Positions 1,789 through 59,908 of a DNA stretch of 64,000 bases are shown here, piece by piece. A program made the position numbers and the translations under genes. The notes under the pieces were generated by a model that made no database searches, was not told where the DNA came from, and saw only the letters and a program-made list of their open reading frames with translations. Numbering within the stretch: position 1 is the first letter of the stretch; every line of letters begins with the position of its first letter. The DNA comes from Periplaneta americana (Eukaryota; Arthropoda; Insecta; Blattodea; Blattidae): the NCBI RefSeq assembly GCF_040183065.1, contig NC_091123.1, forward strand, positions 10,830,001 through 10,894,000, in the 5' to 3' direction.

Positions 1789-2340
1789 CGGTGCACAGTG
1801 TGTAATTTCAAGCAGCTAGCCGGCCAAAAATAAATTTTCACACCACATCTTTAATTCTAAATTCTTATATAGACGTGTTTATAACACTCCAAAGTATACT
1901 ATCGAAGTGTAGACAGATGCTTACATCTGGTAGGGGACCCACACAACAGAGCGAAAGTTGCATGTCTCCGGTAAGATCATTTACGCTGCAGAGGTAAGCG
2001 CGCAGTTTGTATTTCGATGATGCAAAGTGAGGAAGTCAATATAATATTTTTCTTTAATATACAGTGTGGATATATTATAAGGAGGTATATACTTACAAAT
2101 AAACTAATTCTTTTGCTAAAAATTATTATCTTATTGTCTACAATAAGTGTCTGAATGAACATGTGCAGAGAGTCAAAGTTCTATCTTATTACATTACTTT
2201 GAGTTGAATTTTAAAAGGTGTAGCCCTCTATCATCTCGCTAAAATTTTGTGGATATATTCATTATGCTTTTCTGAGCAAGACGTCGTGATTTTTTTCTGC
2301 AACCAGATGCAGACAGAAAAACTATTAATTATTTTCAGAC

Positions 2341-3561
2341 ACCATGCGCTCCGTAATCCGGAGAGCTGTTTTCCAGGTATGGAACAAGAGCGAGACAAAA
2401 GTGAAATTCTCAAATATAATAGAACATTTTGGTGTCAAAGATTACTCTGAAGACATTTTACAGTTAATAAAAACATTAATTAAATTTCTATGCTCGAAAA
2501 TTCGATTACGGTGGGAAAAATACGGCATGAATGAGAAAATTTTCTTAAAATATAATGTGCTATGTTTGAACCAAGATGCAAAGTCTGAGAATAAAATATA
2601 TAATACTTTGAAATCTACTACAAAACAATTCCAATTTGAGTCTGCCCTTACAAGCATTCGGGGACGTCCGCGTAAACTTTTCGGAGAACTGAGCGAAAGA
2701 TCAAAACGGAAAAAATTTAGTCCACTTTTTAAAGAAAGATCACCAGAAGAAAAGCTTTCTGCTGCCCATATGAGTTTCAGAACTTCTAGGAAAAGAGATG
2801 CGGCCAATACTGTAGGAGAGCTTTTACTTGCATCACTTCAACGTCGACAAAATCGAGAAAAAAACGTGAAAATTGATTTTGCAGGAACGACCAACAATTG
2901 TCACCTAATAAGGATCTCGCTTTGATTACTGATTTACAGTTGACCTCTAATCAATATAAAGAATTAAGGGAAATGCAAAATCTTGTAACAGTTAATTTAG
3001 ATCTATCATTTTATTTATTGCGAAACACTGAAGATAGGATAGGTTCAGGCAGGAAAGGGGACTACTTGTTGGCGTGATAAAACAAAGCAGTCGCAATAGA
3101 AATGATGCAAATACCGCAAGAAGATTTTTCATGGAGGTTTCCACTTTCGCATATATTACGGGAATAGATGGACATTTAATAAGTCGTTTACACTCTATCA
3201 GAAACCTTTTTCTTGAGGTTTTGCAATACTGATGAACGGGCACTTGACATGTATGCAAGGGAGACAAGGGAATTATATTTATGCTTGCACAAATAGTATT
3301 ATATGCCTACAACCCTTTACAAACTCTTGGCTCATGGACAGAAGGTCACAGGACACTATTATACCTACTGGAAAACTATCTGAGGAAGCCCAGGAAACGA
3401 GGAACAAATACTATATTAGACTTTTCAGAGAAGTCTTCGCAAGAAAAACATCAAGAAAGACACAAATATCGATCTTTTACTGAGGCTACTTATTTGTTTG
3501 GACACTTACATCATCAGCTTAAAGAAATTAAAAAGAGAAAATCGCTGTCGATTTTAATATA
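2341..3561 (+). pseudogene. Transib transposase relic (RAG1-core related)
   Basis: The longest open stretch (2344-2925, 193 aa) resembles the Transib N-terminal part, with RGRPRKLFGELSERSKRKK near 2660-2715 and EEKLSAAHMSFRTS near 2750-2790. Next comes LALITDLQLTSNQYKELREM (2915-2975). After an apparent deletion come ARRFFMEVSTFAYITGID (about 3115-3170), DMYARETRELYL (about 3245-3280), a block like YMPTTLHKLLAHG (about 3300-3340) and KLSEEAQETRNK (about 3375-3410). The last two match the RAG1 segments with HKTLAH and the final catalytic Glu (EGNESGNK). The reading frame changes several times. The middle of the protein, which would hold the first catalytic Asp residues, is largely missing. Family members run about 600-700 aa. 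It could not act as a transposase. Confidence 0.8.
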
Positions 3562-3613
3562 AGTGCTGCTGTTCTTTCCGAGCCTCTATTACTCGGTGCT
3601 GCCGAAGGAGAGA

Positions 3614-4263
3614 CTATAATATTTTCGCTGTAAGAAAAATCCTAATGTAAACAATAGCACGTGACTGAAGTGAGGCTTCATTGGCCGCTGTTTGGCACCA
3701 TAGATTCTCAGTACGTGTTCCCGCCTACTGTTGTACATTCTGTTTCGTGTTAAACATTTCCCGTTACTCGTCAAGTAAGTCTAACCTCACTACTATGCAT
3801 TCGTTTTACTGCAATTAAAACTCACTTATTATATATATTTAAGACTAATTGTTTTTCTCCGATTTTGAGAAGGTTTCCACTTACGTTTATTAATCGCACA
3901 CACCGAGGATGCAGAAGCCATAGGCTACTTCAGTACCACGTGCTTACGTGACGCCAGCTTGTTACAAGAACAGACTACCTCGGTATTACTGTTGGTATTC
4001 ATCCGCGTTCATAGTACATAACAAAACATGAAAATAACTTTTCTTTTACACAGCGTTTTACATATGAGTGAAGTTATATGTTTCATCGTATTTAACAACC
4101 AGAATTCAATTTTTTATTTTCAAATAATACAAGACTATGGTTTTCAAATACGAACTATATTTTCCTGCGTCATGCGTGTATTTCGACTGGGAGCCAATCA
4201 CGGGTATGACAGCAACGTGCTTATGTTTACATTAGGATTTTTCTTACAGCGAAAACAGTATAG
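3614..4263. mobile_element. Inverted-repeat element nested in the Transib
   Basis: The two ends carry a perfect inverted core (CGCTGTAAGAAAAATCC at 3627-3643, continuing through TAATGTAAAC) and looser similarity outward to about 3614 and 4263, about 45-50 bp in all. The interior has no recognisable protein. The target duplication is not clear, so outer limits are approximate and the superfamily is unassigned. It lies just after the transposase remnant and must postdate the Transib insertion. Confidence 0.6.
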
Positions 4264-4616
4264 CAGCGTGGATACAGATTCTGACGGGCATGCATCTGAC
4301 GTCTGAACGAGTAAGATATGTAGCAATATTCCTTCGTCTTACGCTTTCAATTTTAGGCGCATTCCACATTATGAACATTAATTTATTTTTCCACTGAAAT
4401 CGATTTTTTTTTACAATATTACTAATTTTATTTTCAGTAAAAATAGTTGTTATTTTCATTTTCATTATTGAAAACTTATCTACTTCAATAATTGAAGTTA
4501 CATACCAAATTTTATGAAAATTGAGCGATTAGTTTTCGAGAAATGATTTTTGGCCGGCTAGACTCGCTAAATTACACACTGTGCGGTGTAGAGAAGATTA
4601 TTTAGAGAAATAGGGA

Positions 4617-5022
4617 CATGATTTCTCTCCTCATGATTCATTCATTCATTCATTCATTCATTTTATTCCATAGATCTTACATGAGCAATGAAGCTTTAAG
4701 ATGTGGAACATGTCAACATTTTACAATATTACAATTACAATTTTTACAAATTTTTATAGCTTTACAATTTAGTAATTTTCTACAATTTTTACAATTTTGT
4801 ACAATTTTTTTACATTTTTTTACATTTTGGCGAGATGTAGTGAGATGAGATGAGGTCCGAGGATTCGCCAAAATATTACCCGGCATTTGCCTTTTCGGTG
4901 GGGGAAACCTCGGAAAAACCTAACCAGGTAATCAAATCAAAGGGGTTGATGCCAAGGACTCGCCATAGACCATCCGGCTTCAGTCCCACGGCTGTGGAAA
5001 ACCTCCGAAGAAACCAAAGTTG
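4617..5022 (-). mobile_element. Composite SINE with LINE-like 3' tail
   Basis: On the minus strand the order is: a body with TTACCTGGTTAGGTTTTTCC, then GGCGAATCC and CTCATCTC...CTCGCCAAA (shared with the tRNA-headed SINE at 54384-54634), then a tail containing TTGACATGTTCCACATC and an (AATG)n end at 4636-4661. The tail resembles the 3' UTRs of the Jockey-like LINEs at about 9160 and 47465, as expected if the SINE borrowed a LINE 3' end for mobilisation. No tRNA-like head is evident. Boundaries are approximate. Confidence 0.6.
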
Positions 5023-5392: not shown

Positions 5393-6380
5393 TATATACT
5401 AATAATAAATCTGTAGCCGAAATTTTTCCGGTAATTTTCGATTTTACAAAAATAATTGGTCCTAACATATATAATTAACCGCCCTGAAACCGAAAATCGC
5501 TTTTTTGGAATTTTTGTTTGTATGTACTGTATGTATGTCTGTCTGTCTCTCTGTCTGGATGTTTGTTACCTTTTCACGCGATAATGGCTGAACCGATTTA
5601 TATGAAAATTGGAATATAAATTAAGTTCGTTGTAACTTAGAATTTAGGCTATATGGAATTCAAAATATTTTATTTAAAAGGGGGGTTATACGGGGGCTGG
5701 AATTAAATAAATCGAAATATCTCCCTTATTATTAATTTTCATGAAAAATATTACATAACAAAAATTTCTTTAAAAACAATTTACGATACGTTTTATTCCA
5801 TGCAAAATTTTGATAGAAATGATATTTAATGAGATAACTGAGTTTCAAAATTACAATAACGCCATCTAAGGCGGTGTAATGAAATAAAAAACAAATGACT
5901 TCGTCTATAAGGGGCCTTGGACAACAACAATCGAAAGCTATGAAACATACGGTAGCCTACAGAGAATGTTTCTATGTTTGTACGAAGTAATATCGGAAGC
6001 TAAATTAACCGATTTGTATAATTAATTATTAATTCGCCATTGGAAAGTGTAGTTTCTCTAGATGGACATAATGCTATAATGTTATTACAGTAACTTCTGA
6101 CTGAATCGAGGACAGGTAAGATTAAAATAGCTTCTTATGCACAGAAAACTTGATAGGCATTAGTTTCCTGTATTTCCTAAAATAATTTTTATGACCAAAT
6201 GAGTGGTCTCCGGATCAAAATGATCGCATTTTAATTTTTTAATACAATTTAAATTAAGTAATAAACGATTTATCCTTCTATCAAACACGAATGTTCCTTG
6301 GATCAAATGTCCTATTTTAATTATGTAATTACTTTATATTTATTTCTAACGGATGCAGCGGAGCGCACGGGTACGGCTAG
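5393..6380 (+). mobile_element. Non-autonomous Helitron, copy 2 (subfamily II)
   Basis: Plus-strand copy beginning TATATACTAATAATAAATCT (first dinucleotide TA instead of TC) and ending GCGCACGGGTACGGCTAG at 6380. It lies between A (5392) and T (6381). Internal sequence near 5820-5880 matches the copies at 11029-12042 and 58786-59769. No coding capacity is seen. A (GTCT)n tract lies at about 5538-5555. Confidence 0.85.
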
Positions 6381-6689
6381 TAAATTTTATAAAAGAAAAC
6401 TCAGTTTTGTTTCTTGAAAAAACTTTGCTGTGATACTTTGTTACTTTTATTATTGCTCTTGTATGAATAGAGATAGAATAATTTTAAAAATTTCCTTTTA
6501 ATCAGAAATCGTGTCCGCTTCATGTTCTCTAAAGGAAAGCTGTGATTGTTGAACTGTCTAGCAGTATTTAGTGTGTGAACGAGAGGGGCTATTATGATAC
6601 TCTAGAAGGGCTATTATAATATTACTGGTGGCTTGTGCAGCAAATGCTACAAACTAAGTTCATTAGACGTTCAAATAAACATTTTTCAG

Positions 6690-7130
6690 ATTTATTTTCA
6701 ATGAAGAATACCAGACATTCTGAAAGTTATTTGCTTCCACAATAATGAATCATACTCCCTCTGAATGGTTTTTTTGTACCAAATACTTTTTCTTGAACCT
6801 ATACACCTTCAGTTTTTTAGTTTGAACGCGAAAACGCAAGTAACAATGTCAGGACTATCAGTCAGTTTTTCATGTAGGAGTAAAGCAGTAGCTATTTCAG
6901 GTCATTGCGGATTGTAGGTGAAAGTTAAAAAAAATTTCAGGTTTGCTATGCTTTCGAACAATAGACATAACATCTTGGTATAGCTGCTGCATGTTTCGTA
7001 AACTAGCTTGGAATGTAGAGGGTAAAATCATTTTATCCTGCTAAGAGATCTTGCTGAAATGATCGGGAAACTACAAAATCTTGTAGGCCTCTTATTTTAT
7101 CAGTAATACCTTTTGGTCTTTCCTTAGGAA
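6690..7130 (-). pseudogene. Helitron Rep protein relic (Helitron_like_N region)
   Basis: Translated on the minus strand across several frames, this stretch gives ILPSTF (about 7010-7030), LRNMQQLYQDVMSIVRKHSK (about 6950-7005), then degraded remains of the FxxTFTCNPxWPE block, and PDIVTCVFAFKLK (about 6825-6870). This is the order found in the Helitron_like_N domain of Helitron Rep/helicase proteins (LPSSFxGxPRxMxQxYQDAMxxVRKxGKP). It is heavily broken and lacks the helicase part. It may be left from an autonomous relative of the short Helitrons in this window, but no joining sequence shows that. Confidence 0.6.
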
Positions 7131-7452
7131 CTGTAATTTTTGCGCTCTCTCGAGCCAATACTGAAGAGAATGACGCATATAAATATCTACACCACACCGC
7201 CATTAAATATATGAAAAAGACCCAACCCCACTTGATTAATAACTATAAAAATATTTGAATTTTAATAACAATATTATGATCTTACGTAAGTTTTATAGTT
7301 TTCTGTAACATATACTATATAGCCGCCACTCAGTAAATTATAGAAATCAAGATCTAATTTAAGATATTCTCTACATCTACTTATATAACCCCAAAAAGTT
7401 TCACTTTCATATCATCAATATACGTAGCATTAATATGTATAATTACTGAAAA

Positions 7453-7901
7453 ATAGTCACAGCATGGCATTAACTATAATAATATTTCATTTCTAATGGT
7501 AATAATGTCATCAAACCACCTCAAGTTTTGCAGATTTTAATATCCAATACATAGCTGTACTCAGAAAATTACACACCACAGAATCAGACCTGTAAATTAT
7601 TTTTAGTAAGTCTTGAAGTTTTTAATAATCAATTTAATTTGAGCTCTAAATATGTCAGCATTCTTGCAGATTATGGCCTTCGTGTAATATTGTTTACTGT
7701 AGATATGTTTTGTTTTATTCTGAAATGCAATTAGTTAGTGACGACAGATGGATTTTGGAAAAAAGGAAAATGATGTGGGAAAATTGACATTTCACTGAAA
7801 ACTACTATTTTTCCGAAAAACTTTCGGTTCCAAGCTTCAAAATGAGGGGTCATTTATTAAAATCCGTTCAGCCGTTTTCCCGTAACTTCCATTACCAGTT
7901 C

Positions 7902-7964
<63 letters not shown>

Positions 7965-7992
7965 ACAGCATGGCATTAACTATAATAATATT
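7453..7992 (+). mobile_element. (TA)n-tailed insertion flanked by 34-bp direct repeats
   Basis: An identical 34-bp segment (starts ATAGTCACAGCATGGC) occurs at 7453-7486 and 7959-7992. Between them lie 472 bp ending in a pure (TA)n run (about 7905-7958). A long target duplication plus a simple-repeat 3' tail is what target-primed retrotransposition by a LINE or SINE produces. The insert has no recognisable protein, so it would be a 5'-truncated 3' end. A simple local duplication is the alternative. Confidence 0.55.
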
Positions 7993-7999
7993 GGCACTT

Positions 8000-8447
8000 G
8001 TTGGTGTAGTTTACAATGAAATAATTTGGCCAAGTTGATCAATTTTCTAAAATACAGTTATGTATTACCTTTTCTCAGCTCTTGGAGGGATGTTTCAATT
8101 GACATGTTGGCATGGCGCTGGACCTACAATACAATGTAAGTTAAAAACTTTACACATAATTATATATTTATTTTTACTTATTTACCAAACAATTTTAGCT
8201 TAATAGTCATTCTTCTTGCTATTAAAATGTAACACAACTTTGGAAAATACAGTAATGATTGATTTAAAAAGTGTTTTAACTTAATTTAGCGATACAAACT
8301 GTATCACAAGTTTTTAAATCTATTTCCTTACACACAAAAAATTATTTGGACATATAGCAATTCCCCAGCATTTGCAGTAAATGTTAAAGTTTCAGTAAAA
8401 TGTATAAATTTTATGGGAAAAAAGTTCTTTACAAAAGTTGCTAAATC
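8000..8447. other. Unassigned stretch, one weak exon-like segment
   Basis: A pyrimidine-rich CTTTTCTCAG ends at 8078 and GTAAGT begins at 8136, bracketing 57 nt with two open frames. Splice-like signals this short arise by chance in AT-rich DNA and no protein similarity is recognised. Nothing else is seen. Confidence 0.25.
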
Positions 8448-8450
8448 TTA

Positions 8451-9097
8451 CAAGGAGACCGACCCACTTTGATGTCAAAATTGAGGTCGGGAAAATTTTG
8501 GGTGAAAGTATGGCCAAATTCATAAGACACGCGTCTCGGCTTTTTTTCCATATATGCCTGGGTTCAATAGAGAAAAATAATAAAAAAATTACAAGTTAAA
8601 CCACTGTGAACATTATAGTGCCAATACACCATGTTTACAATTAATCACTGATATGTATTAATGTGAATAATTTGAAGGAATTCTTTGTGTCAATGCAATG
8701 TAATACGACGCAACATAAGATGGAAGTTTATTCTACAAGCCATTAAATTTTGTTAGCATTGCAAAATGATATAACATTAGGAATCTACAAATGTGTGTAT
8801 TAAAAAAAAAATTTTAAAAATTTTAGGATTATAAGAGATTCGAACTCTATGCGCTGCTATACTACGGTTGCTCGTATCCAACGCGCTACTGCCTGAGCCA
8901 CGCTGACATAACATTTCCAGTTGTAGCAATGAACAGTTACGCTACAGTCGTTTGACCCGTAACTTTCCAATTTTTTTTCTCTTGATCCCAGGCCTATATG
9001 GAAAAAATCCGAGACACGTGTCTTATGAATTTGGCCATATTTTCACCCAAAATTTTCCCGATCCGAATCTTGACATTAAAGTGGGGCTGTCTCCTTG
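8451..9097. mobile_element. Foldback MITE with about 150-bp inverted ends
   Basis: The left end CAAGGAGACCGACCCACTTT and right end (reverse) CAAGGAGACAGCCCCACTTT match inward for about 150 bp, including TTTTGGGTGAAA and TGGCCAAATTCATAAGACAC in both. Direct TTA flanks both ends (8448-8450 and 9098-9100), which suits a TWA-target family such as PIF/Harbinger, though the assignment is uncertain. No protein is encoded. A tRNA-like segment lies inside at about 8833-8907. Confidence 0.75.
8833..8907 (-). other. tRNA-like segment inside the foldback MITE
   Basis: Minus strand: an A-box-like TGGCTCAGGCAGTAGCGC, then about 40 nt on a T-arm-like AGAGTTCGAATCTCT whose AGAG/CTCT can pair around TTCGAAT. 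The acceptor-stem halves do not pair, so this is a tRNA-derived relic, not a tRNA gene. It could have supplied an RNA polymerase III promoter. Confidence 0.5.
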
Positions 9098-9158
9098 TTA
9101 GTTAATTTCAATGTGATTTCAACGAAACCTTACGGATTATATTAAGCATACGTGTACT

Positions 9159-9657
9159 GTATTGTATTGTATTCATTTACATTCCATTGTATTCGTACAG
9201 TGCTTCACAGCTAGAATATGGAACATGTCAAACGAAAAGAAAATATCTTAATATTAATATAAAGTCTTAATTATAATCACAGTCTAGTTGAAATATAGGC
9301 TATACAGAAGAGTTTTACAATATATCTACTATTCCAACACGAACTTTTAGTGTATACTTAATACAATGCAGAAATATTCATGAAGCGTTGTTGAATGTCA
9401 TGAATTCACTTACAGAATGGATGGCGTGAGAAATTAGGCACTTCTTTAATTTGGCCCTAAATAATCTTATGTTTTGAGTTTCATTTTTTATAACCAGAGG
9501 GGGGCTATTAAAAATTTTTGCTACCATATAACGCATACCTTTTTGAACTAAACAATTTTGTTGGGTCATAGTTCATAATAGCAGCTTATGGGCACACAAC
9601 AAAATGAAAGCATTCCTTTTTGATAGCACGATAGACTTCTCGATGGAATATGAAAAT
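9159..9657 (-). pseudogene. Jockey-like LINE 3' end (RT C-terminus and 3' UTR), part 1
   Basis: The minus-strand frame 9378-9569 reads QKGMRYMVAKIFNSPPLVIK, then FRAKLKKCLISHAIHSVSEF. This is the usual C-terminal segment of Jockey-group reverse transcriptases (QKGxxYxGIKIFNxLP...LKxFLLxHxFYSVxEF). The 3' UTR with CTAGCTGTGAAGCACTGTAC follows, ending in an (ATACA)n-type tail at about 9159-9172. The same tail occurs at 47465. At the upper edge (9617-9657) the segment encoding FHIPSRSLSCYQK breaks off and resumes beyond the insertion at about 10249. Confidence 0.7.
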
Positions 9658-10248
9658 CATTGCTTTAACTAAATTACACCCAGAACTTCTAACATGTAAC
9701 CCACTAACATATAACAAGAAAATTAGAAACGTGTTAATATCTTAAATTTGATTAAATAAATTTATAGCCTATGTGTATGATTTAATCAACCTATATTATA
9801 TTTATATTCTATAATTTTGAAATATATAGTCCCACTTTTCACGTGCGATATTATTCTTCTCTAGTGTTAATATTATATTATATAATTCCATTGCCGCTGT
9901 AATTTAAATTTTAGTTCCTATTTTATTTTACTTATTTATTTTTATTATTTTTTATTTTCTATATTTCTCTTATATTAATATTGTATTATATACTTTCTGT
10001 AACTGTAATTTTAATTCTATTTCCTATTTTATTTTATTTTATTTTATATTCTCTTATAGGCCTATTAATATTATATCTGAACTACGACCGAACACGAGCG
10101 CCGCTCATTCGGTCTCAAATTTTGTTAATACTACTGTATCTCCTTTTTTATATTGTTTGTATTATTTTATTTCTATTTCTCTTGTTTGTTTGTAATTATA
10201 TTATTCTGTATATTTCAATTTAAAGAAATAAATTAACTAAATAAATAA
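9658..10248 (+). mobile_element. Probable LINE 3'-UTR insertion, opposite strand
   Basis: This AT-rich block splits the minus-strand Jockey-like LINE. The uninterrupted arrangement of the two flanks is visible at 48311-48399. It contains ACTACGACCGAACACGAGCG and CCGCTCATTCGGTC (about 10080-10110), and ends in an A-rich run ATAAATTAACTAAATAAATAA. A plus-strand, 5'-truncated retroelement 3' UTR fits best. No coding part is present, so the family is not assigned. Confidence 0.5.
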
Positions 10249-10660
10249 TTTTTACGCGTATTTATGCTATGAACTGTTGAATTAGCTACAAAGTTTTCAC
10301 GATTACATAGGAGGAAGATTATTAGTGAAAAAGTATACTGTCAAGCCATGAGCATTATTTGTAGTTTTTTTTAAATAGTCCTACACGATTCCCTAGATTT
10401 GGCACCTACTATTATTCTAATTACTGTTTTTTGTAGTAGGAATATACTGTTACTATCTGTGGAATTTCCTCAGAATATTATTCCAAAACTCACTACCGAG
10501 TGGAAGTATGCAAAGTATATTGCTTCTGATATTTACTATCTCTTGCATAGATCTAATAGCAAGACAAGCTGAATTTAGTCTGGGGGTAATTTCTTTAATA
10601 TTATTTTTCCAATTTAACGTATTATCCATTTATAAGACAGGAAATTTGGTTATTGTTGTT
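10249..10660 (-). pseudogene. Jockey-like LINE reverse transcriptase, part 2
   Basis: Minus-strand translation gives MDNTLNWKNNIKEITPRLNS then ACLAIRSMQEIVNI (about 10515-10630), and further down NSTVHSINTR (about 10255-10285). These match the post-catalytic thumb region of Jockey-group reverse transcriptases (LGIxIDNxLNWKxHI...LxxACFAIRSM...HSINTRxK). It is frame-broken and lacks the RT active site within this stretch. It continues into 9159-9657 across the inserted block. Confidence 0.65.
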
Positions 10661-10857
10661 GTTGTTGTTGTTGGATGTACTATTACAATGCCCTTACTTC
10701 ATTGCTCCGTATATTACGGCCATATTTAAAACTCTCTATCAGAATAGCCTGTAGGTGTATCACAATAGCTCACACAGAAGGCTTTTATTATTAGTATTAT
10801 TACAAATAAAAATATTTAACTCCAGATCCTTCATATATGTCTAAAGTAGTACATGAC

Positions 10858-11028
<171 letters not shown>

Positions 11029-12042
11029 TTAGCCGTACCCTTGCGCTCCGCTGCACCAGTTAGAAATAAATATAATTACATAATTAAAATAGGACGTTAG
11101 ATCCAGGGAACATCCGGGTTTTAAAGAAGGATAAATCGTTTAATATGTTACTTAATTTAAATTGTATGTAAATAATTAAAATGCATAATTTTGGTCTAGA
11201 GACCACTCATTTGGTGCAATGACAATTCCTTTAACATGTTTCTTATTTTTTTATTACGTGCAACCATAGTTTAATGAATGTACAAAATAGCCTATTAAAT
11301 TTTCTGTGCATAAGAAGCTATTTTAATCTTACCTGTCCTCAATTCACTCAGACGTTACTGTAATAACATTATAGCATTATGTCCGTCTAGAGAGGAACTA
11401 CACTTTCCAATGGTGAAATAATAATTAATTATACAAATCGGTTAATTTAGCATCCGATATTATTTCATACAAACACAGAAACATTCTCTTTAGGCTATGT
11501 TTAATATCTTTCGATTGTTGTTGTCCAAGGCTCCTTATAGACGAAGTCATTTTTTCTTATTTCATTGCACCGCCTTAGATGGCATTATTTTAATTTTAAA
11601 ACTCATTTATCTCATTAAATATCAGTTCTATCAAAATTTTTCAAAGAATAAAACTTATCGGATATCATTTTTAAAGAAACCTTTGTTATGTAACATCTTT
11701 TACAAAAATCAATAATAAGCGAGATATTTCGATTTATTTAATTCAGGCCCCCTTACAACCCCCATTTCAAATAAAGTATTTTGAATGGCACAAAGCCTAA
11801 AATCTAAGTTACAACTAACTTAATTTATATTCCAATTTTCATCGAAATCTGTTCAGCCATTATCGCGTGAAAAGGTAACAAACATACAGACAGACAGACA
11901 GACAGACAGACATACAAACAAAAATTTCAAAAAAGCGATTTTCGGTTTCAGGGTGGTTAATTATATATGTTAGGACCAATTATTTTTGGAAAATCGAAAA
12001 TTACCAGAAAAATTTCGGCTACAGATTTATTATTAGTATAGA
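11029..12042 (-). mobile_element. Non-autonomous Helitron, copy 3 (subfamily II), in a microsatellite
   Basis: On the minus strand it begins TCTATACTAATAATAAATCT and ends TACGGCTAA, where the final CTAG is changed to CTAA, still a CTRR end. Flanks are A (11028) and T (12043). The (TTTA)n array continues on both sides, so the insertion cut a pre-existing microsatellite. No coding capacity is seen. (CAGA)n lies near 11885-11910. Confidence 0.85.
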
Positions 12043-20944: not shown

Positions 20945-21093
20945 AACCGGCCAGGTACAATGACCCCGATTTGTTTTATTTCCCCTTGGGTAGAACAGCA
21001 GAATCAACTGGTGAACCACCTGCAAGGGGCTTTCTACAGCACGCAACAGTGAAGCCTTTTTATGACGAAAATGTGGAAACTGTCTCTCTGCTC

Positions 21094-21300
21094 ACCCGAT
21101 TCCAATTCCATTGAAAATGTACGACCAGAGGTAAAGAAAGAAATGATGTCGAAGTGGCCTGCAAATCAACGCTAGACAAAGGACGCCTTGTGGCTCAAAT
21201 TCAAGAAGCCCGTCATACAGTATCGACATTTGATTTCATCCATGCCTCGAAGCTTCAGGCAAGTAATTCGGCCTGGCAGGTCACATACTCTCAATTAGAA
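21094..21300 (+). pseudogene. Tc1-like transposase C-terminus, array unit 0
   Basis: Encodes remains of SPDxNPIENVRPEVKKEMMSK, then KDALWLKF and a SMPRRxRQVI-like end. This is the Tc1/mariner block after the last catalytic residue region, with the usual C-terminal SMPRR. Only about 60 residues are represented and the frame is broken. Similar fragments recur in each following unit. Confidence 0.6.
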
Positions 21301-21424
21301 GAATGTTTTTGTTGTTTTTCATATAAGACTATTTTTGTTGGGATTTGTTCCTTCATTATTTATTTTCATTAGTATTAGATGGAAAAAAAGGAAAAGTTTA
21401 TCTTTCGTTTTTGTGTGTGCACAT

Positions 21425-23172
21425 TAAGGTGTATCGAAAAAATTAAATTACGAGTTTGAAAAAGATCTAGTACGGAAAAGTTGTCATTATATGTAACAAT
21501 TGTGCATAAAAAATTAGAGCTCTAGATTAAATTTTTACCGAGGCGCAGAGCCTTCTAAGTGTTATAGTACTCACCAAAAACTTGAAAAAAAAAATACATT
21601 CTGTAATACTGAATACATTCTGTAAGGACGTTCAGATATTACAAATGTTTGTATAGATGACTGAATAGACACTTCCAAACTGGCAACGCAATATACTTCA
21701 AATCAGGGTGCGTATTGTGTAGATGTAGGGAGCGTGTAAAAATAAGGGGTAGTTATCTTTTCTGCTTTCTGTCACAATTTCCCTGCTTTCTGTTCGTCAG
21801 TTTCTCTTGAGCCTTTGCTTGTAGTGCATTGCATGTGTGTTTTGAGTGTTGCGTATTACTTCTAATGGTGAAATCTTCACCAGTGAGAACAAGAAAGAAG
21901 AATCTGTCAGAGCGGAGGATACTTTTGGTGCCCCAAAATAATTGGATAACAAAACACTCCCGACTTAGCGAGATGTAATAAGGTATTATCTCTTCACGCG
22001 CATAGAATTAAAAGGTGAAGGAAGTAAAGAACCTGCAGTGAGTGCAGTTGCAGAAAAAGTTGCAGATAAAGTAGTGAGTACATGGAAACACGCCTCGATC
22101 CCTGTTATTCATTTCCATGAAAACAATATCAGATGTGATATTAAATTATTATCATAATAAAGTGAAGAATTTATTAAAAACAAGAAAAAGCAGGAAATCT
22201 AATGAATCTAAACTGGACTGTATTAGACGTAACAGCCTAAGATTAATTGATGTTGCAACATGCAAATGCCTTGACTTTGCGAACTGGAAATACGAAAAAA
22301 TACCAGAAAAAAAAGAAAGGAATTTCCTGGTCAAACAGACATGTAGAAAAATGACGATTGGAAGTCTGGACAATGTAACAAAAAAGCCCGCAACAACAAG
22401 AGGAAAACAGATCACTGAAATGTAAAGAAAAGAAGAGCTGCCATCTATTTCTCCAGAGTGTGCCCTACAACAGAGCAGCTCATCGGGAGAAAATAATTCT
22501 TCGGATTTCAATTGGAAATATCCACTTAAATCTATATCAAGACCTGCAAATTGAAAATGCACTTTGCAGTTGAGAATTCCTCTGCCAAAAGTTTTTAAAA
22601 TTACCGATAAAACGGGTTATCAGTAATAAAAGTAGCGTCAATTGCCTCTGTAGTGCTAGAAGATCTTAAAATAGTATCTAAAGAGGACGAAAGCAATTTA
22701 ATACATAAAAGGAAAATTCAGCGAGAGGTAAAGAAAAATTGTAGTGCTGCCTTAAGAACGAATTAGAAGAAACAAGATTTCCCCTGGGTATTTATTTCTA
22801 CGGAAAGAAGGAACTCGATAGCAGCCACTATCCCGTGGTGAGTTTTTGGTTGTTACAGCCTGTAAACATTGTTAAGAGTTCTGTTCAGTTATCTGGGTAC
22901 TTAAGTAATACTAACATTTCTAAAGTACGTAACAGAAAATTAAAAAAATATGTATTAATATTACAGTCTGTAACAAGCAAAAAAATGTGAAGTTATTTAA
23001 ATAAAGATTTAGATAAAATTCTTAAACTTTAAAGGTAAAGCGCCCGGGCTAAAAATTTTCGTATGAGCACAAAATTTGTTAGAGACAATAATTAACTCAT
23101 AAGACAACTCTTAGACCCCCAATTTTTCTAATCTCTTAAAAAAAATTTAACCACCGATTTCGATACACCCTA
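21425..23172 (+). mobile_element. hAT-like DNA element inserted in array A
   Basis: The left end TAAGGTGTATCGAAA and the reversed right end TAGGGTGTATCGAAA are inverted repeats. The 8-bp duplication GTGCACAT lies at 21417-21424 and 23173-23180; removing one copy plus the element restores the array unit found elsewhere (GTGTGTGCACATCA). An 8-bp duplication and TAGGG-type ends suit hAT. A plus-strand relic of a repeated insect protein family lies inside (about 21860-22430). Confidence 0.8.
21860..22430 (+). pseudogene. Relic of a multicopy insect protein carried by the hAT-like element
   Basis: The clearest frame (22117-22425, 102 aa) includes LNYYHNKVKNLLKTRKSRK, RLIDVATCKCLDFANWKYEK and KMTIGSLDNVTKK. 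I recall this pattern (LFDIAxCKCxDFxxCxCEKxRKVP...RKMxIGxVDxxT) from a large family of uncharacterised arthropod and hydra proteins that look transposon-borne. Upstream, broken frames give VRTRKKNLSE and KEPAVSAVAEKVADKVV-like remains (about 21880-22080). No catalytic residues can be pointed to. The link to a hAT transposase is inferred from the flanking ends, not from domain recognition. Confidence 0.5.
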
Positions 23173-23753
23173 GTGCACATCAATGCCACAACTTCAATGA
23201 TTTAAATGTTAAAAAAAAAATACAATAACCGGCATGCTAAAGGTATTTTGTTAAACAAAAAAATAGAAGTAAGCCTAAAGTAAGCTTACCTACGTTCTCA
23301 CAAATTTCCATACACCAGAACTAATAAAACTGCACGTTGGAAGTTTCAGTGTCCCCTCCTGTAGAAAAGCCCGTGTACGTCAGCATGCCGTGCCACAGAT
23401 GCCCAACACTGTACCAGTGCATCACGTGGACCCACAGGCGGATTTTTATGGGAGGACATGGGGGGGGGGCATTGTCCTCCCAAACTTGGCCGAAATGGTT
23501 CTCTCTCCACCTATGTGTGGACTCAGGCCTGTGGCTGTAACTGGTGGAGTCCTGCATCATAGCTAACAATTCTGTGAGTATTGCTTTGTACGACCAGAAT
23601 ATTACTTCTTTGTAGTGTTGGAATATTTGTCATAACCGGCCACTTCACCAGATTTGTTTTGTTACCCCTTAGATAGAACAGCAGAATCAACTGATGTACC
23701 GCTTTCTATAGCACGCAACAGCGAAGCCATTTTTGTCGAAAACTGTCTCCTTG

Positions 23754-23950
23754 CTCACCCGATTCCAATCCCATTGATAATGTAAGGCCAGACAGAGGTG
23801 AAGACAGAAATGATGTCGAAGTGGTCTGCAAATCAACGCAGGAAAAAGACTCTTGTGGCTCAAATTCAAGAAGCCTGGGATACAGTATCGACATTTGATT
23901 TCATCCATGCCTCAAAGTTTCAGGCAAGTAATTCGGCCTGGCAGGTTACA
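23754..23950 (+). pseudogene. Tc1-like transposase C-terminus, array unit 1
   Basis: Same fragment as at 21094, frame-broken after SPIPIDN. It retains KTLVAQIQEAW and the SMPQSFRQVI-type end in shifted frames. The copies at 24682, 25604, 26540, 27465 and 28365 are listed separately. Confidence 0.55.
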
Positions 23951-24681
23951 TTATCTGTATTAGATGAATACTTTTTTTTCATACAAGACTATTTATGTTT
24001 GTTGGGATTTGTTCCTTCATTATTTATTTTCATTAGTATTAGATGAAAAAAAGCTTATCTTTCGTTTTTGTGTGTGCATATCAATGCCACAACTTCAATG
24101 ATTGAAATTAAAAATAAAAAGTACAGTAACCGGCATGCTAAAGGTGTTTTGTTAAATAAAAATAGAAATAAGATGGAGACACCAAAAGCCTAAACTAACC
24201 TCACCAAACTTCTCACAAATTTTCATACATCAGAACTAATAAAAATGCAAGTTGGAAGTTTCAGTGTCGTGTCCTGTAGAAAAGTCCGTGTACGTCAGCA
24301 TGCCGTGCCACAGATGTCGAACACTGTATCAGTGCATCTCGTGGACCCATAAGCGGAGTTATGGGGAAGCATGGGGGCACTGTCCCCCCAAACGTGGCTG
24401 AAACGGTTCTCTCTTCACCTATGCGTGGACCCAGGCCTGTGGCTGTAATTGGTGGAGTTCTGCATGATAGCTGACAATGCTGTGAGTATTGCATTGTGTG
24501 ACCGGAATATTACTTCTTTGTAGTATTGGGATATTTGTCATAATTGGCCAATGCATCGGATTTGTATTGTTACCCTTAGGTAGAACAGCAGAATCAACTG
24601 GTGTACCACCTGGACAGTGCTCTCTATAGCACGCAACAGGAAATCCTTTTTTGACGAAAATGTGCAAACTGTCTCCTTGCT

Positions 24682-24870
24682 CACCCGATTCCAAACTCAT
24701 TGAAAATGTACGACCAGAGGTGAAGAAAGAAATGATGTCGAAGTGACCTGCAAATCAACACAGGACAAAGGAAGTTTTGTGGCTCAAATTCAAGTAGCCT
24801 GGCATACAGTATCGACATTTGATTTCATCCATGCCTCGAAGCTTCAGGCAAGTAATTCGACCTGGCAGGT
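24682..24870 (+). pseudogene. Tc1-like transposase C-terminus, array unit 2
   Basis: Retains ENVRPEVKKEMMSK, broken by a stop at the following Trp position, and the SMPRRFRQVI end. Part of array A. Confidence 0.55.
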
Positions 24871-25603
24871 CACATAGTCTCTATTAGAAGAAGGTTTTTT
24901 GTTGTTTTTTCATATACGACTATTTATTTTGTTGGATTTTTTCTTTCATTTTATATTTGAATTAGTATCAGATGAAAAAAGTTTTTCTTTTTTTTTTTGT
25001 GTGTGCATATCAATGCCACAACTTCAATGTTTGAAATTTTTAAAAAGTACAGTAACCGGCATGCTAAAGGTGTTTTGTTAAATAAAAATAGAAATAAGAT
25101 GGAGACACCAAAAGCCTAAACTAACCTCACCTGATTTCTCACAAATTTTCATACATCAGAACTAATAAAAATGCAAGTTGGAAGTTTCAGTGTTGTGTCC
25201 TGTAGAAAAGTCCGTGTACGTCAGCATGCCGTGCCACAGATATCGAACACTGTATCAGTGCATCTCGTGGACCCACAGGCGGAGTTATGGGAGAGCATAG
25301 GCACTGTCCTCCCAAACGTGGCCGAAACAGTTCTCTCTTCACCTATGCGTGGACCCAGGCCTGTGGCTGTAATTGGTGGAGTTCTGCATGATAGCTGACA
25401 ATGCTGTGAGTATTGCATTGTGTGACCGGAATATTACTTCTTTGTAGTATTGGAATATTTGTCATAACCGGCCAGTGGACTTGGTCTGTTTTATTACCCA
25501 GTAGATAGTACAGAAGAATCAACTGGTGTACTGCCTGGACGGTGTTTTCTATAGCACGCAACAGCGAAGCCTTTTTCTTGACGAAAGTGTCGAAACTGTC
25601 TCC

Positions 25604-25795
25604 CTGCTCACCCGATTTCAATCCCATTGAAAATGTAAGGCCAGAGGTGAAGAAAGAAATGATGTCGAAGTGGCCTGCAAATCGGCATAGGACAAAGGAC
25701 GCCTTGTGGCTCAAATTCAAGAAGCCTGGGCTGCAGTATCGACATTTGATTCATCCTTGCCTCGAAGATTGAGGCAAGTAATTCGACCTGGCAGG
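25604..25795 (+). pseudogene. Tc1-like transposase C-terminus, array unit 3 (best preserved)
   Basis: The frame 25542-25772 reads SPDFNPIENVRPEVKKEMMS, then KWPANRHRTKDALWLKFKKP. Tc1-type proteins have SPDLNPIENVWPEVKK here, followed by about 40 residues to SMPRR. This is the clearest evidence that the array unit captured a Tc1 3' end. It lies downstream of the splice-acceptor-like TAG in the same unit. Confidence 0.7.
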
Positions 25796-26539
25796 TCACA
25801 TACTCTGTATTAGATGATTTTTTTTTCATACAAGACTATTTATTTTTGTTTGGATTTGTTCCTTCATTATTTATTTTCATTAGTATTAGATGAAAAAAAA
25901 AATATCTTTAGATTTTGTGTGTGCACATCAGTGTCACAACTTCAATGATTTAAATGTTAAAAATAACCAGCATGCTGAAGGTAAAATAAAAACAGAAATA
26001 AGATGGAGACAACAAAAGCCTAAACTAACCTCATCTAACTTCTCATAAATTTTCATACACCAGAACTAATAAAAATGCAAGTTGGAAGTTTCAGTGTTGT
26101 GTCCTGTAGAAAAGCCCGTGTACGTCAGCATGCCGTGGCACAGATGTCTAACACTGTATCAGTGCATCACGTGGACCCATAAGCGGAGTTATGGAGAGCA
26201 TGGGAGGCACTGTCCTCCTAAACGTGGCCGAAACTGTCCTCTCTCCGCCTATGCGTGGACCCAGGCCTGTGGCTGTAACTGGCGGAGTTCTGCATCATAG
26301 CTAACGATGCTGTGAGTATCTCTATTTATTTGTCTATGGTGAGTATTGCATTGTCTGACCGGAATATTACTTCTTTGTAGTATTGGGACATTTGTCATAA
26401 CCGGCCAATGCACCAGATTTGTTTTGTTACCACTTAGATAGAACAGCAGAATCAACTGGTGTACCACCTGGACAGTGCTTTCTATAGCACGCAACAGCAA
26501 ATCCTTTTTTGACGAAAATGTGGAAACTGTCTCTCTTCT

Positions 26540-26730
26540 CACACGATTCCAATCCCATTGAAAATGTACGACCAGAGGTGAAGAAAGAAATGTCGAAGTG
26601 GCCTGCAAATCAACGCAGGACAAAGGACGTCTTGTGGTTCAAATTCAAGTAGCCTGGCATACATTATCGACATTTTATTTCATCCATGCCTCGAAGCTTC
26701 AGGCAAGTAATTCTGCCTGGCAGGTCACAT
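26540..26730 (+). pseudogene. Tc1-like transposase C-terminus, array unit 4
   Basis: Same fragment with a small in-frame loss (EVKKEMSKWPANQRRTKDVLW) and a downstream stop. Part of array A. Confidence 0.55.
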
Positions 26731-27464
26731 AGTATCTATTAGAAGAAGGTTTTTTTGTTGTTTTTTCATATACGACTATTTATTTTGTTGGATTTTTTTC
26801 TTTCGCTTTATATTTGAATTAATATTAGATGAAAAAAAGTTTATCTTTCTTTTTTGTGTGTGCATATCAATGCCACAACTTCAATGATTGAAATTTTTAA
26901 AAAGTACAGTAATCGGCATGGTAAAGGTGTTTTGTTAAATAAAATAGAAATAAGATGGAGACACCAAAAGCCTAAACTAACCTCACCTAATTTCTCACAA
27001 ATTTCCATACACCAGAACTAATAAAAATGCAAGTTGGAAGTTTCAGTGTCGTGTCCTGTAGAAAAGCCCGTGTACGTCAGCATGCAGTGCCACAGATGTC
27101 CAACACTGTATCAGTGCATCACGTGGACCCATAGGCGGAGTTATGGGGAGCATGGGAGGCACTGTCCTCCCAAACGTGGCCGAAACCGTTCTCTCTCCGC
27201 CTATGCGTGGACCCAGGGCTGTGTCTGTAACTGGTGGAGTTGTGCATCATAGCTAACAATGCTGTGAGTATTGCTTTGTCTGACCGGAATATTACTTCTT
27301 TGTAGTATTGGGATATTTTTCATAATTTGCCAATGCATCGGATTTGTATTGTTACCCCTTAGGTAGAACAGCAGAATCAACTGGTGTACCGCCTGGACGG
27401 TGCTTTCTATAGCACGAAACAGCGAATCCTTTATTGACGAAAATGTGGAAACTGTCTCCCTTCT

Positions 27465-27650
27465 CACCCGACTCCAATCTCATTGAAAATGTACGACCAG
27501 AGATGAAGAAAGAAATGATGTCGAAGTGGCCTGCAAATCAACGCAGAACGAAGGACGCCTTTTGGCTCAAATTCAAGTAGCCTGGCATAAAGTATCCTCC
27601 TTTGACTTCATCCATGCCTCGAAGATTCAGGCAAGTAATTCGACCTAGCA
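27465..27650 (+). pseudogene. Tc1-like transposase C-terminus, array unit 5
   Basis: Same fragment (ENVRPEMKKEMMSKWPANQR) ending in a SMPRRFRQVI-like segment. Part of array A. Confidence 0.55.
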
Positions 27651-28364
27651 GGTCACATACTCTCTATTAGAAGAATGTTTGTTGTTGTTGTTTTTTCATA
27701 TAAGACCATTTATTTTTGTTTGGATTTGTACCATCATTATTTATTTTTATTAGTATTAGATGAAAAAAAAGCTTATATTTCGTTTCTGTGTTTGATATCA
27801 ATTCCACAACTTCAATGATTTGAATGTTAAAATAACCGGCGTGCTGAAGGTATTTTGTTAAATAAAAACGGAAGTAAGATGAACACATCAAAAGCCTAAA
27901 CTAACCTCACCTACCTTGTCACAAATTTCCATACATAAGAACTAAGAAAAATCCAAGTTGGAAGTTTCAGTGTCGTGTCCTGTAGAAAAGCCCGTGTACG
28001 TCAGCATGCCGTGCCACAGATGTCCAACACTGTATCAGTGCATCACGTGGACCCATAAGCGGAGTTATGGGGGAGCATGGGGCACTGTCCTCCCAAACGT
28101 GGCCGAAACCGTTCTCTCTCCGCCTATGCGTGGACCCAGGGCTGTGTCTGTAACTGGTGGAGTTCTGCATCTTAGCTAACAATGCCGTGAGTATTGCATT
28201 GTCTGACTGGAATATTACTTCTTTGTAGTATTGGAATATTTCTCATAACCGGCCAATGCACCAGATTTGTTTTTTACCATTTAGGTACAATAGCCTGGAC
28301 GGTGCTTTCTATAGCACGCAACAGCGAAGAGTTTTTCGAAGAATGTGTGGAAACTGTCTCCCTG

Positions 28365-28560
28365 CTCACCCGATTCCAATCCCATTGAAATTTTATGACC
28401 AGAAGTGAAGATAGAAATGATGTCGAAGTGGCCTGCAAATCAACGCAGAACAAAAGAAGTTTTGTGGCTCAAATTCAAGTAGCCTGGCATACAGTATCGA
28501 CATTTGATTTCATCCATTCCTCGAAGCTTCAGGCAAGTAATTCGGCCTGGCAGGTCACAT
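28365..28560 (+). pseudogene. Tc1-like transposase C-terminus, array unit 6
   Basis: Most diverged copy (PIEILxPEVKIEMMSKWPAN). It lies just before the (TATG)n tract that ends the 0.9-kb units. Confidence 0.5.
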
Positions 28561-29262: not shown

Positions 29263-29730
29263 CGTCCGGGGAAGGTGCTGCAGTGTCTGAGGTGAAGAGG
29301 ATGAAGAGGAGCTAACCATCCCCGCCCTGATGTCCGGGGAAGATGTTGCAGTGTCGGAGGTGAAGAGGATGAAGAGGAGCTAACCATCCCCGCAATGATG
29401 TCCGGGGAAGATGTTGCAGTGTCGGAGGTGAAGAGGATGAAGAGGAGCTAACCACCCCGCCCTGATGTCCGGGGAAGATGTTGCAGTGTCGGAGGTGAAG
29501 AGGATGAAGAGGAGCTAACCACCCCCGCCCTGATGTCCGGGGAATATGTTGTAGTGTTGGAGGTGAAGAGGATGAAGAGGAGCTAACCACCCCCGCCCTG
29601 ATGTCCGGGGAAGATGTTGCAGTGTTGGAGGTGAAGAGGATGAAGAGGAGCTAACCACCCCCGCCCTGATGTCCGGGGAAGATATTGCATTGTCGGAGGT
29701 GAAGAAGATGAAGAAGAGCTAACCACTCCC
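29263..29730. repeat. 66-bp minisatellite, about seven units
   Basis: TGTCCGGGGAAGATGTTGCA recurs about every 65-67 bp (starts near 29332, 29399, 29466, 29532, 29600 and 29667, with a first variant at 29265). Each unit continues AGTGTCGGAGGTGAAGAGG and GAGGAGCTAACCACCCC. It is much more GC-rich than its surroundings. Minus-strand frames through it are repeat artefacts. Confidence 0.9.
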
Positions 29731-30283
29731 GATGGTTGCACTACCAGCAGATTGCCAGTACATACCTTGTAAAACATAATCCCGTGTGTACAGGTAATCT
29801 TTGAAGGACACACAGTACGTTATTTTGTAAATTTCGAATGAAATTTCAATGACTCAAAATTTCTGTAAGTCGAACTATTTTTTTGGTCCCGTTGCGATTG
29901 GAGAAATCGAGGTCAGACTGATTATTATATAAGAGTAATAATGATTCAAAAAATTTATTATAGAAAAATTAAACGAGTTAAAATTTGTTAAAAATTGGAT
30001 GGCTGCAAAAAAATATACGTTTCAAAGATTTTATAAAAGTATTCATGAATATGTTCTATTAGAACATAGTATAATATTAATAAATATACCGTAATATGTA
30101 TGTATTTAATGCTCAATCAGATTGATTCAACATCATTTGGTTTCTGGCAGAACAGGTCAAAGTCCCCAATAGAAGATTTAAAATTTGCAAGTTTTTTTAC
30201 AAACATTTAAATGTTCTCAATTCGTAATATAATTTTTCTCATTACAAATGACACCCAGTTTATATAAATATTCTGCCAGGCAG

Positions 30284-30469: not shown

Positions 30470-33400
30470 GTAAATAAATACATACAGACTTAAAGCCTAA
30501 AATAACCTCTCACAAATGTACGTTGGAAGTTCCAGTGTTGAGTGCTATAGAAAAGCCCCTGAACGTCAGCCTGCCGTGCCCCAGATGCCCATGCAAGAAT
30601 TTGACTGCCTTGCCCAACGCTGTGCGGATGTGTCACATTGACCCAGAGCTGTGGCTGTGATTGGTGAAGTGCTGCATCGTAACTAACAAAGCTGTGAGTA
30701 TTGCAGTGTCTTACCAGAATTTACTTCTGTGTACTACTGAAATTCTTGATGTAACTGGTCAACTACATTGCATCCGTTTTGTTTTGTTGCCTCTAAGGGG
30801 GAACTGCAAAATCAACTGCTGTATCACCTGAACTCAGGCTGCCATGCCCCAGACGCTCCGCAGAAGAATACCTGCGCAGAAGAATATCTCCGCAGAAGAA
30901 TACCTCTGCATAAGAAAGAAAAATATCTCCGCAGAAGAAAAAAGAATACCTCCGCAGAAGAAAGAAGAATATCTCCGCAGAAGAAAGAAGAATATCTCCG
31001 GAGAAGAATACCTCCGGAGAAGAATACTTCCGGAGAAGAATATCTCCGCAGAAGAATACCTACCCAGCGCTGTGCAGATGCGTCACGTCGAGCCAATGTT
31101 GAGTTCTGCATCGTAACTAACAAAGCTGTGAGTATTGCATTGTCTTACCAGAATGTTAGAATGTTACTTCTGTGTACTACTGAAGTCCTTGTAACTGTTC
31201 AACTACATTTCACCCGTTTTGTTTTGTTGCCTCTAAGGAAGAACTGCAGAGTCAACTGGTGTATCAACTGGACGTCAGGCTGCCGTGCCCCAGGTGGTCC
31301 ACGGAAAAATATCTCCGCAGAAGAAAGAAGAATATCTGCGCAGAAGAAAGAAGAATATCACCGCAGAAGAAAGAAGAATATCACCGCAGAAGAAAGAAGA
31401 ATACCTCCGGAGAAGAATATCTCCGCAGAAGAATACCTACCCAGCGCTGTGCAGAAGCGTCACGTCGAGCCAATGTTGAGTTCTGCATCGTAACTAACAA
31501 AGCTGTGAGTATTGCATTGTCATACCAGAATGTTACTTCTGTGTACTACTGAAGTCCTTGTAACTGTTCAACTTCATTTCACCCGTTTTGTTTGTTGCCT
31601 TTAAGGAAGAACTGCAGAGTCAACTGGTGTATCACCTGGACGTCAGGCTGCCGTGCCCCAGGTGGTCCACGGAAGAATATCTCCGCAGAAGAAAGAAGAA
31701 TATCTGCGCAGAAGAAAGAAGAATATCACCGCAGAAGAAAGAAGAATATCACCGCAGAAGAAAGAAGAATATCACCGCAGAAAGAGTTCTGTATCATAAC
31801 TAACAAAGCTGTGAGCATTGCAGTGTCTTACCAGAATGTTACTTCTGTGTACTACTGAAGTCCTTCTTGTAACTATTCAACTACATTTCACCCGTTTTGT
31901 TTTGTTGCCTCTAAGGAAGAACTGCAGAGTCAACTGGTGTACCACCTGGACGTCAGGCTGCCGTGCCCCAGGTGGTCCACAGAAGAATATCTCCGCAGAA
32001 GAAAGAAGAATATCTCCGCATAAGAAAGAAGATCTCCGCAGAAGAAAGAAGAATATCACCGCAGAAAGAGTTCTGCATCATAACTAACAAAGCTGTGAGT
32101 ATTGCAGTGTCTTACCAGAATGTTACTTCTATGTACTACTGAAGTCCTTCTTGTAACTATTCAACTACGTTTCACCCGTTTTGTTTTGTTGCCTCTAAGG
32201 AAGAACTGCAGAGTCAACTGGTGTACCACCTGGACGTCAGGCTGCCGTGCCCCAGGTGGTCCACAGAAGAATATCTCCGCAGAAGAAAGAAGATCTCCGC
32301 AGAAGAAAGAAGAATATCACCGCAGAAAGAGTTCTGCATCATAACTAACAAAGCTGTGAGTATTGCAGTGTCTTACCAGAATGTTACTTCTATGTACTAC
32401 TGAAGTCCTTCTTGTAACTATTCAACTACGTTTCACCCGTTTTGTTTTGTTGCCTCTAAGGAAGAACTGCAGAGTCAACTGGTGTACCACCTGGACGTCA
32501 GGCTGCCGTGCCCCAGGTGGTCCACAGAAGAATATCTCCGCAGAAGAAAGAAGAATATCTCCGCATAAGAAAGAAGATCTCCGCAGAAGAAAGAAGAATA
32601 TCACCGCAGAAAGAGTTCTGCATCATAACTAACAAAGCTGTGAGTATTGCAGTGTCTTACCAGAATGTTACTTCTATGTACTACTGAAGTCCTTCTTGTA
32701 ACTATTCAACTACGTTTCACCCGTTTTGTTTTGTTGCCTCTAAGGAAGAACTGCAGAGTCAACTGGTGTACCACCTGGACGTCAGGCTGCCGTGCCCCAG
32801 GTGGTCCACAGAAGAATATCTCCGCAGAAGAAAGAAGATCTCCGCAGAAGAAAGAAGAATACCTCTGCAAAAGAATATCTCCGCAGAAGAGTACCTGTAT
32901 CGTAGCGCACAATTCTGTGAGTATTGCAATGTCTTACCAGAGTGTTATTTCCGTGTACTCTTGGTATATTTGTAATATCTGAGCAACTACAGTTCACCTG
33001 TTTTGTTTTGTTGTAGAATCTCTGATAGAATTGTAGAATCAGCTGGTATACAATCCTGAACATCAGCCGTGTCCTAAATGCTCCGCACAAATACCTGGTG
33101 AATGCAGAATAATGCCTGTAACCGATGGACTTCTGCATCAGAGAGGATAGTGCTGTGAGTAGTACAGTGTCTTGTCAGAATGTTACTTCTGTGTACTATT
33201 GGAATATTTGTTCTAGCTGTCCAAATATAACGCATCCGTATTGTTTCGTTACCTCTCAGGTAGAATCACAGAAAGACTTGTTGTACAACCTGGACATCAG
33301 CTTGCCGTGTCCCATATGGTCCGTACAAGAATTAGACTGCCTGTCCAACGCAGTGTAAAGTGCGCTACGTGGACCCAGAGCTGTGACTGTGACTGGTGGA

Positions 33401-33490
33401 ATTTACACCACAGCATGCAGGGCTGTGAGTATTACGATGTCTTACTAAAATGTTACTTCTGTGTATTATTGAAATATTTGTTGTAACTGA
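30470..33490 (+). repeat. Tandem array B: about ten short units with splice-like signals
   Basis: The block CTGTGAGTATTGCAGTGTCT recurs near 30690, 31125, 31504, 31809, 32095, 32355, 32640, 32918, 33153 and 33425, with spacing falling from about 435 to 235-285 bp. Between it and the next block lies a constant stretch of about 110 bp ending TTTTGTTGCCTCTAAG, so every unit looks like exon + GTGAGT..AG mini-intron. The exon-like part carries AGAACTGCAGAGTCAACTGG and CGTCAGGCTGCCGTGCCCC, homologous to array A, plus a minisatellite of variable length. The first unit (30470-30690) has the array A head. All three frames are open across the minisatellite. Confidence 0.85.
30855..32910 (+). repeat. 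16/23-bp minisatellite inside array B exon-like blocks
   Basis: The motif CAGAAGAATATCTCCG (16 bp) and the longer CAGAAGAAAGAAGAATATCTCCG-type unit (23 bp, listed here only as a pattern) expand differently in each array unit: about 13 motifs at 30855-31060, fewer in later units. Variants end CTCCGG, CTGCG or CACCG. It is not present in array A, so it arose after the two arrays split. Confidence 0.85.
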
Positions 33491-39967: not shown

Positions 39968-40246
39968 AACATACTGTAGGCCTATTTATTTTTGTGGATG
40001 GAGTTATGGCTGTCAGTTCTCCTCTTCCACAAATTCAGAGATTCATATACAAATAGAATACGGTACAAATATAAACACAAAATTAAAAGTCAATGAAACA
40101 TTTACACGAATCAAAAGAAATTAAATGCAAAATAATATTTACTAATATAAACAATAATAATGATAATAATAATTACAAATAATTAAATAATAATAATAAC
40201 AATGCTAAATAAATTTTAATCTGTGAAATGGTAGAAGCCATCTGAT
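39965..40246. other. Unassigned stretch
   Basis: A-rich with TAATAA runs near 40150-40200. No gene seen. Confidence 0.4.
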
Positions 40247-40456
40247 TCATTCATTTCATTTCATTCATTTATTTTATTCCATAGATCTTACATGAGCAAT
40301 GAAGCTTTAAGATGTGGAACATGTCAACATTTTACAATATTACAATTACAATTTTTACAAATTTTTATAGTTTTACAATTTAGTAATTTTCTACAATTTT
40401 TACAATGTTGTACAATTTTTTTTTTTTTTTACATTTTGGCGAGATGTAGTGAGATG
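40247..40456 (-). mobile_element. LINE-like SINE tail, second copy
   Basis: Near-identical to 4636-4850: (ATTC)n at its low-coordinate end, ATAGATCTTACATGAGCAAT, AGATGTGGAACATGTCAAC, ACAATTTTT repeats and GGCGAGATGTAGTGAGATGA. It stops there and lacks the body that follows at 4850, so it is 5'-truncated on the minus strand. Confidence 0.7.
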
Positions 40457-40484
40457 AAATTTACAGTAGGTCTATATACAATTC

Positions 40485-54266: not shown

Positions 54267-54300
<34 letters not shown>

Positions 54301-59769: not shown

Positions 59770-59908
59770 TTCCTATGTTTGTGTAGGAGTAGTGGTGTTG
59801 GATAATGTTCCACGACTTCATACTGACAAATGGATAGCTGCAATATGGACTCTAGTACTGCATAGTGGTTGCTAAATTAATGCCAGGACTTACACAACAC
59901 TGACGTTT

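Follow-up and report, generated by a model that had tools for sequence, protein, structure and literature searches.

A degenerate Transib-type transposon with CACAGTG ends in Periplaneta americana

A 2790-bp segment of the Periplaneta americana genome is almost certainly a degenerate insertion of a cut-and-paste DNA transposon of the Transib superfamily. It occupies positions 1794–4583 of the window, by which we mean the entire 64,000-nucleotide stretch of DNA that was analyzed, and it shows three features that define Transib, namely, CAC-type ends that match the RSS heptamer, a 5-bp duplication, and a transposase homologous to that of HzTransib. The first-pass annotation of this DNA had placed the element in Transib, and the assignment holds on the strength of the heptamer ends, the CGGTG duplication, and the fact that HzTransib is the only significant match when the joined transposase is searched against the PDB. 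The element is a defunct new copy of a known superfamily, and a good but ordinary example of it. Its parts are as follows.

1789–1793, no strand: left copy of the 5-bp target site duplication CGGTG
1794–1840, + strand: left terminal inverted repeat, with CACAGTG, a 23-bp spacer, and the nonamer-like CCAAAAATA at 1824–1832
2329–2895, + strand: open frame upstream of the recognized transposase, with the GRPRK..SKRKK region; no relevant PDB match
3038–3226, + strand: transposase relic, the first 54 residues of which (3038–3199) correspond to HzTransib 299–352 (E 2.4e-8), the rest lying in the read-through match
3228–3344, + strand: transposase relic in another frame, with an in-frame stop at 3294–3296 and the YYMPTTLYKLLAHG segment, from the read-through
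3346–3459, + strand: transposase relic that contains SEEAQETRNK and aligns to HzTransib 403–440 (E 1.3e-4; stretch 9.1e-4)
3460–3600, + strand: C-terminal transposase remains in shifted frames, with TNIDLLLRLLICLDTYI aligned up to HzTransib 457 and the rest assigned by position only
3619–4258, no strand: nested 640-bp inverted-repeat element, flanked on both sides by TATA and lying toward the 3′ end of the relic; its limits were drawn by eye along the arms
4537–4583, − strand: right terminal inverted repeat, with CACAGTG, a 23-bp spacer, and the nonamer-like CCAAAAATC at 4545–4553
4584–4588, no strand: right copy of the 5-bp target site duplication CGGTG

The element starts with CACAGTGTGTAATTT, and the reverse complement of CACAGTGTGTAATTT stands at its end. 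The inverted identity of the two ends is 15/15 over the outermost bases and 32/38 and 37/47 over longer arms. The match falls into two blocks, the outer 15 bp and, after 7 bp in which a single base matches, CTAGCCGGCCAAAAAT, where 16 of 16 bases agree. An exact CACAGTG heptamer is present at both ends (1794–1800 on the + strand and 4577–4583 on the − strand), and CGGTG is duplicated directly outside them. Both features had been read from the letters in the first-pass annotation and are found as described. A repeat of ∼218 bp near the element's right end (4634–4851) is 96% identical to 40243–40460, 36 kb away, and both copies contain simple repeats of the TTACAATTT type.

The transposase relic

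On the + strand, positions 2329–3600 hold pieces in three frames that, taken in order, are readable as one protein. Of five single-frame pieces searched against the PDB, two match HzTransib (PDB 6pqn), the structurally solved Transib transposase of Helicoverpa zea. The piece at 3038–3232 matches residues 299–352 with an E value of 2.4e-8, and that at 3217–3483 matches residues 403–440 with E values of 1.3e-4 for the sequence and 9.1e-4 for the stretch. In the search with the latter piece, 7on8 and 7q58 outrank HzTransib on the whole-sequence E value, which they reach by summing individually insignificant stretches. The single-frame PDB searches with 2329–2922, 2877–3077, and 3248–3562 gave no match to HzTransib; 2877–3077 drew summed scores of the leucine-rich-repeat type only, and its Rab family matches are likewise sums of insignificant stretches. 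The two matches to HzTransib are collinear, with 147 bp between them in the relic versus a separation of 50 residues in HzTransib.

Read through across the frames, the relic aligns to HzTransib residues 296–457 in the PDB search with an E value of 2.2e-29, which is somewhat optimistic since the frames were chosen by eye; the two single-frame matches are unaffected by that choice. The read-through has just one further PDB match with an E value of 10 or less, to an O-methyltransferase (E 0.5). The joined N-terminal part has no PDB match at all. Pfam, in which we know of no Transib model, returned four weak matches for the six + strand pieces, all under the cut-offs, no match for the joined C-terminal part, and one weak match, again under the cut-off, for another ten frames of the element, of which nine are on the − strand.

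Within the alignment, SEEAQETRNK of the relic pairs with SEEASEARNK of HzTransib, in the segment (3346–3459) that we take to carry the catalytic glutamate. The first-pass annotation had described a relic protein with the RAG1-shared motifs HKxLAH and SEE..ExxNK. The Transib-related protein and its SEE..ExxNK segment stand, whereas the supposed HKxLAH in fact reads YKLLAH, at the place where HzTransib has HKLLIH. The open frame at 2329–2895 is taken as the N-terminal part of the transposase, being Transib-like by its position and one motif only.

Decay of the copy and alternative readings

The aligned parts of the transposase lie in different frames and include one in-frame stop. The DNA between position 2344, where the long open frame has its first ATG, and the match at 3038 could accommodate only 231 codons, against 298 residues in HzTransib, and nothing in the relic upstream of HzTransib residue 296 was recognized in the PDB, whether with the read-through or with the joined N-terminal part. 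By analogy with RAG1, both DDE aspartates would presumably lie upstream of residue 296. As for the DDE residues, the putative glutamate segment is kept, and the region expected to hold the aspartates was not recognized. Part of the middle of the transposase, including the two catalytic aspartates, seems to be missing; alternatively, the unrecognized N-terminal part may simply be short and diverged. The 640-bp element nested at 3619–4258 has arms of 49–54 bp with 89–92% complementarity and no second copy within the window, and when it is subtracted, about 2150 bp of Transib remain. Because of the frame changes and the stop, the lack of anything recognized before HzTransib residue 296, and the nested 640-bp element, this copy cannot encode a working enzyme.

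The shortfall between 2344 and 3038, together with the unrecognized sequence upstream of residue 296, would also be expected of a non-autonomous Transib family that had spread in an internally deleted form, its copies sharing the deletion and the breaks seen here arising later. We regard such a family as possible but somewhat unlikely, since a deletion private to the 1794–4583 copy, or an N-terminal part that is shorter and diverged, would look alike.

A relic of a RAG-like transposon of the RAGL/ProtoRAG type, which would formerly have carried RAG1L and RAG2L genes, is very improbable, even though RAGL elements share CAC-type ends and 5-bp duplications in the portions of PMC7204232 cited here. 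The sole strong protein match is HzTransib, and the read-through finds it without matching any RAG1 chain in the PDB at E values up to 10, so the relic is assigned to Transib and not to a RAG-like transposon. According to the same portions, Transib has <22% identity with the analyzed RAG1/RAG1L proteins, which helps to tell the two apart, and the consensus of protostome RAGL ends, CACTWMCAAACKTYKBB, departs from the ends of the present element from the fourth base (PMC7204232). The RAG2, kelch, and PHD families are absent in the 16 scanned frames of the element (nine on the − strand), a scan that a decayed RAG2L could escape.

The heptamer alone occurs at chance frequency, with CACAGTG observed 7 times in the window (both ends counted) versus 6.1 expected. 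The joint structure was scored as a 15-mer inverted match, 500–6000 bp apart, with an adjoining 5-bp duplication. Two pairs in the window have this structure at 15 bases, the Transib-type element and a pair at 6264/11140, and 60 first-order Markov sequences as long as the window contained none; with a 12-base criterion, there are 4 pairs in the window versus 3 in 30 Markov sequences. Such sequences do not mimic genomic repeats, and the control counts only against chance. The terminal inverted match and the adjoining duplication are jointly unusual. A chance inverted repeat enclosing an unrelated pseudogene, to which the chance frequency of CACAGTG would lend itself, can be dismissed as of negligible probability given the 0/60 Markov result and the Transib transposase relic between the ends. 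The 6264–11140 pair was rejected as element ends, as it lies within a more extended inverted repeat; the two arms lie nearly 5 kb apart around AACGATTTATCCTTC, and the likeness continues on both sides of the 15-mer.

For the degenerate Transib insertion, what is known of the family suggests that a Transib transposase would have bound the inverted ends and made its cuts beside the CACAGTG heptamers. Joining to a staggered target would then have produced the 5-bp CGGTG duplication that is observed. The transposase gene would later have decayed through the frame changes and the stop, which are seen in the relic, and probably through loss of part of its middle, and another small inverted-repeat element has entered the gene. 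At most, an intact relative at another genomic locus might still mobilize the ends.

Resemblance of the ends to V(D)J signals

Measured against ACAAAAACC, which we take to be the consensus nonamer of the V(D)J signal, the nonamer-like block on the left (CCAAAAATA) agrees at 6/9 positions and that on the right (CCAAAAATC) at 7/9, both at 23 bp from the heptamer. In 100,000 single-base shuffles, the shuffled inner ends reach these scores at spacing 23 in 3.0% (left) and 0.26% (right) of cases, proportions that rise to 15.9% and 1.5% when spacings of 12 or 23 ± 1 are admitted; the spacing of 23 had been noticed before it was tested, and the ends, as mutual inverted repeats, are not independent. 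The right end holds a further 6/9 nonamer match at spacing 37. The likeness to the nonamer is modest, and what links the ends of the element to a 23-RSS is resemblance only; the site is no receptor locus.

That Transib ends look like RSSs is already published, as the cited parts of PMC4411706, PMC7204232, and PMC8355894 make plain. Transib and RAGL elements are described there with 5-bp duplications and heptamer-like ends (PMC4411706, PMC7204232), and Transib ends with a heptamer and nonamer-like blocks, separated by symmetric spacers of 20–22 bp and, in a few cases, by 12/23 spacers (PMC8355894). Because this likeness is already in print, the exact heptamer is unsurprising, and the weight that the first-pass annotation had placed on an exact CACAGTG finds no support in the literature. 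Our literature search found no paper combining Transib, insect, and CACAGTG, and in the one paper it found with both Transib and Periplaneta, the two are mentioned separately.

The symmetric 23/23 arrangement raises the idea, rather doubtful in our estimation, that vertebrate RAG may act directly on the 23-RSS look-alike ends of this family, which might offer a natural model of the condition that preceded the 12/23 rule. In the part of PMC8355894 cited here, HzTransib combined with the RAG2 of mouse is reported to be able to act on 12/23 signals of that species, the converse of RAG acting on the present ends.

Comparison with known elements and the surrounding repeats

HzTransib of Helicoverpa zea (GenBank DQ788836; PDB 6pqn and related entries) is 3518 bp long and has a deduced 489-residue protein, TIRs, and a GCTCG duplication (PMC1852546, in the portion cited). 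The present element is like it in having inverted ends and a 5-bp duplication, CGGTG here and GCTCG there, the ends being likened by description, and in its homologous transposase over residues 296–457, which include the SEEAxExRNK segment. It differs in its length of 2790 bp, the 640-bp insert included, and in its broken gene. The Transib families of Drosophila and Anopheles, in the part of PMC8355894 used here, likewise carry a heptamer and an A-rich nonamer-like block at their ends; their spacers are symmetric at 20–22 bp, with some 12/23, whereas here they are 23/23, with the A-run set against ACAAAAACC. With RAGL/ProtoRAG elements, as far as the cited text of PMC7204232 describes them, the element shares CAC ends, a 5-bp duplication, and a distantly related enzyme of the RAG1 type, but no RAG2-like gene is recognized here and the end consensus differs.

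No second copy of the element was found in the window by blastn of the element or by tblastn of three relic pieces. Apart from self-matches, including those of the ends and of the nested arms, blastn gave one 46-bp match at 52224–52268 (83%, E 0.001), which was rejected as a further copy because it is too short; the best tblastn E value elsewhere in the window was 0.06. Among IMG/VR viral contigs, the search by protein produced pattern matches in 78 stretches, none of them confirmed, and the search by end pattern yielded 0. Prokaryote genomes gave 269 stretches and 0 confirmed relatives. Neither the viral nor the prokaryote collections are expected to contain insect transposons.

The window holds several other repeats. 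At 20984–28557 and 30721–33485 there are repeats at a spacing of about 900–950 bp, along with tandem units of 261–368 bp that carry AGAAGAATA(T/C)CTCCGC minisatellites; an 84-bp segment is common to both regions, with 15 copies in total among the largest 20 of 52 families. At 29264–29731, a 68-bp tandem repeat is present in about 7 copies with 95% matches. Diverged repeat units, about 60–89% like the reference copies among the largest 20 of 52 families, extend over the last 13 kb (51009–63864). Possible remains of a reverse transcriptase lie at 49086–49421 (RVT_1, E 0.0018, under the Pfam cut-off), and the neighboring frame at 48398–48805 has no Pfam match.

RAG1, part of the recombinase of vertebrate antibody genes, is widely considered to stem from Transib. 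A sister or a derived position has been proposed as well (PMC7204232, in the part cited). The Periplaneta element leaves the picture of Transib and RAG1 unchanged and adds to it one data point, a decayed copy whose ends combine an exact CACAGTG with a nonamer-like block 23 bp away. Intact relatives of this Transib family could help to test how RAG-type enzymes choose spacer length.
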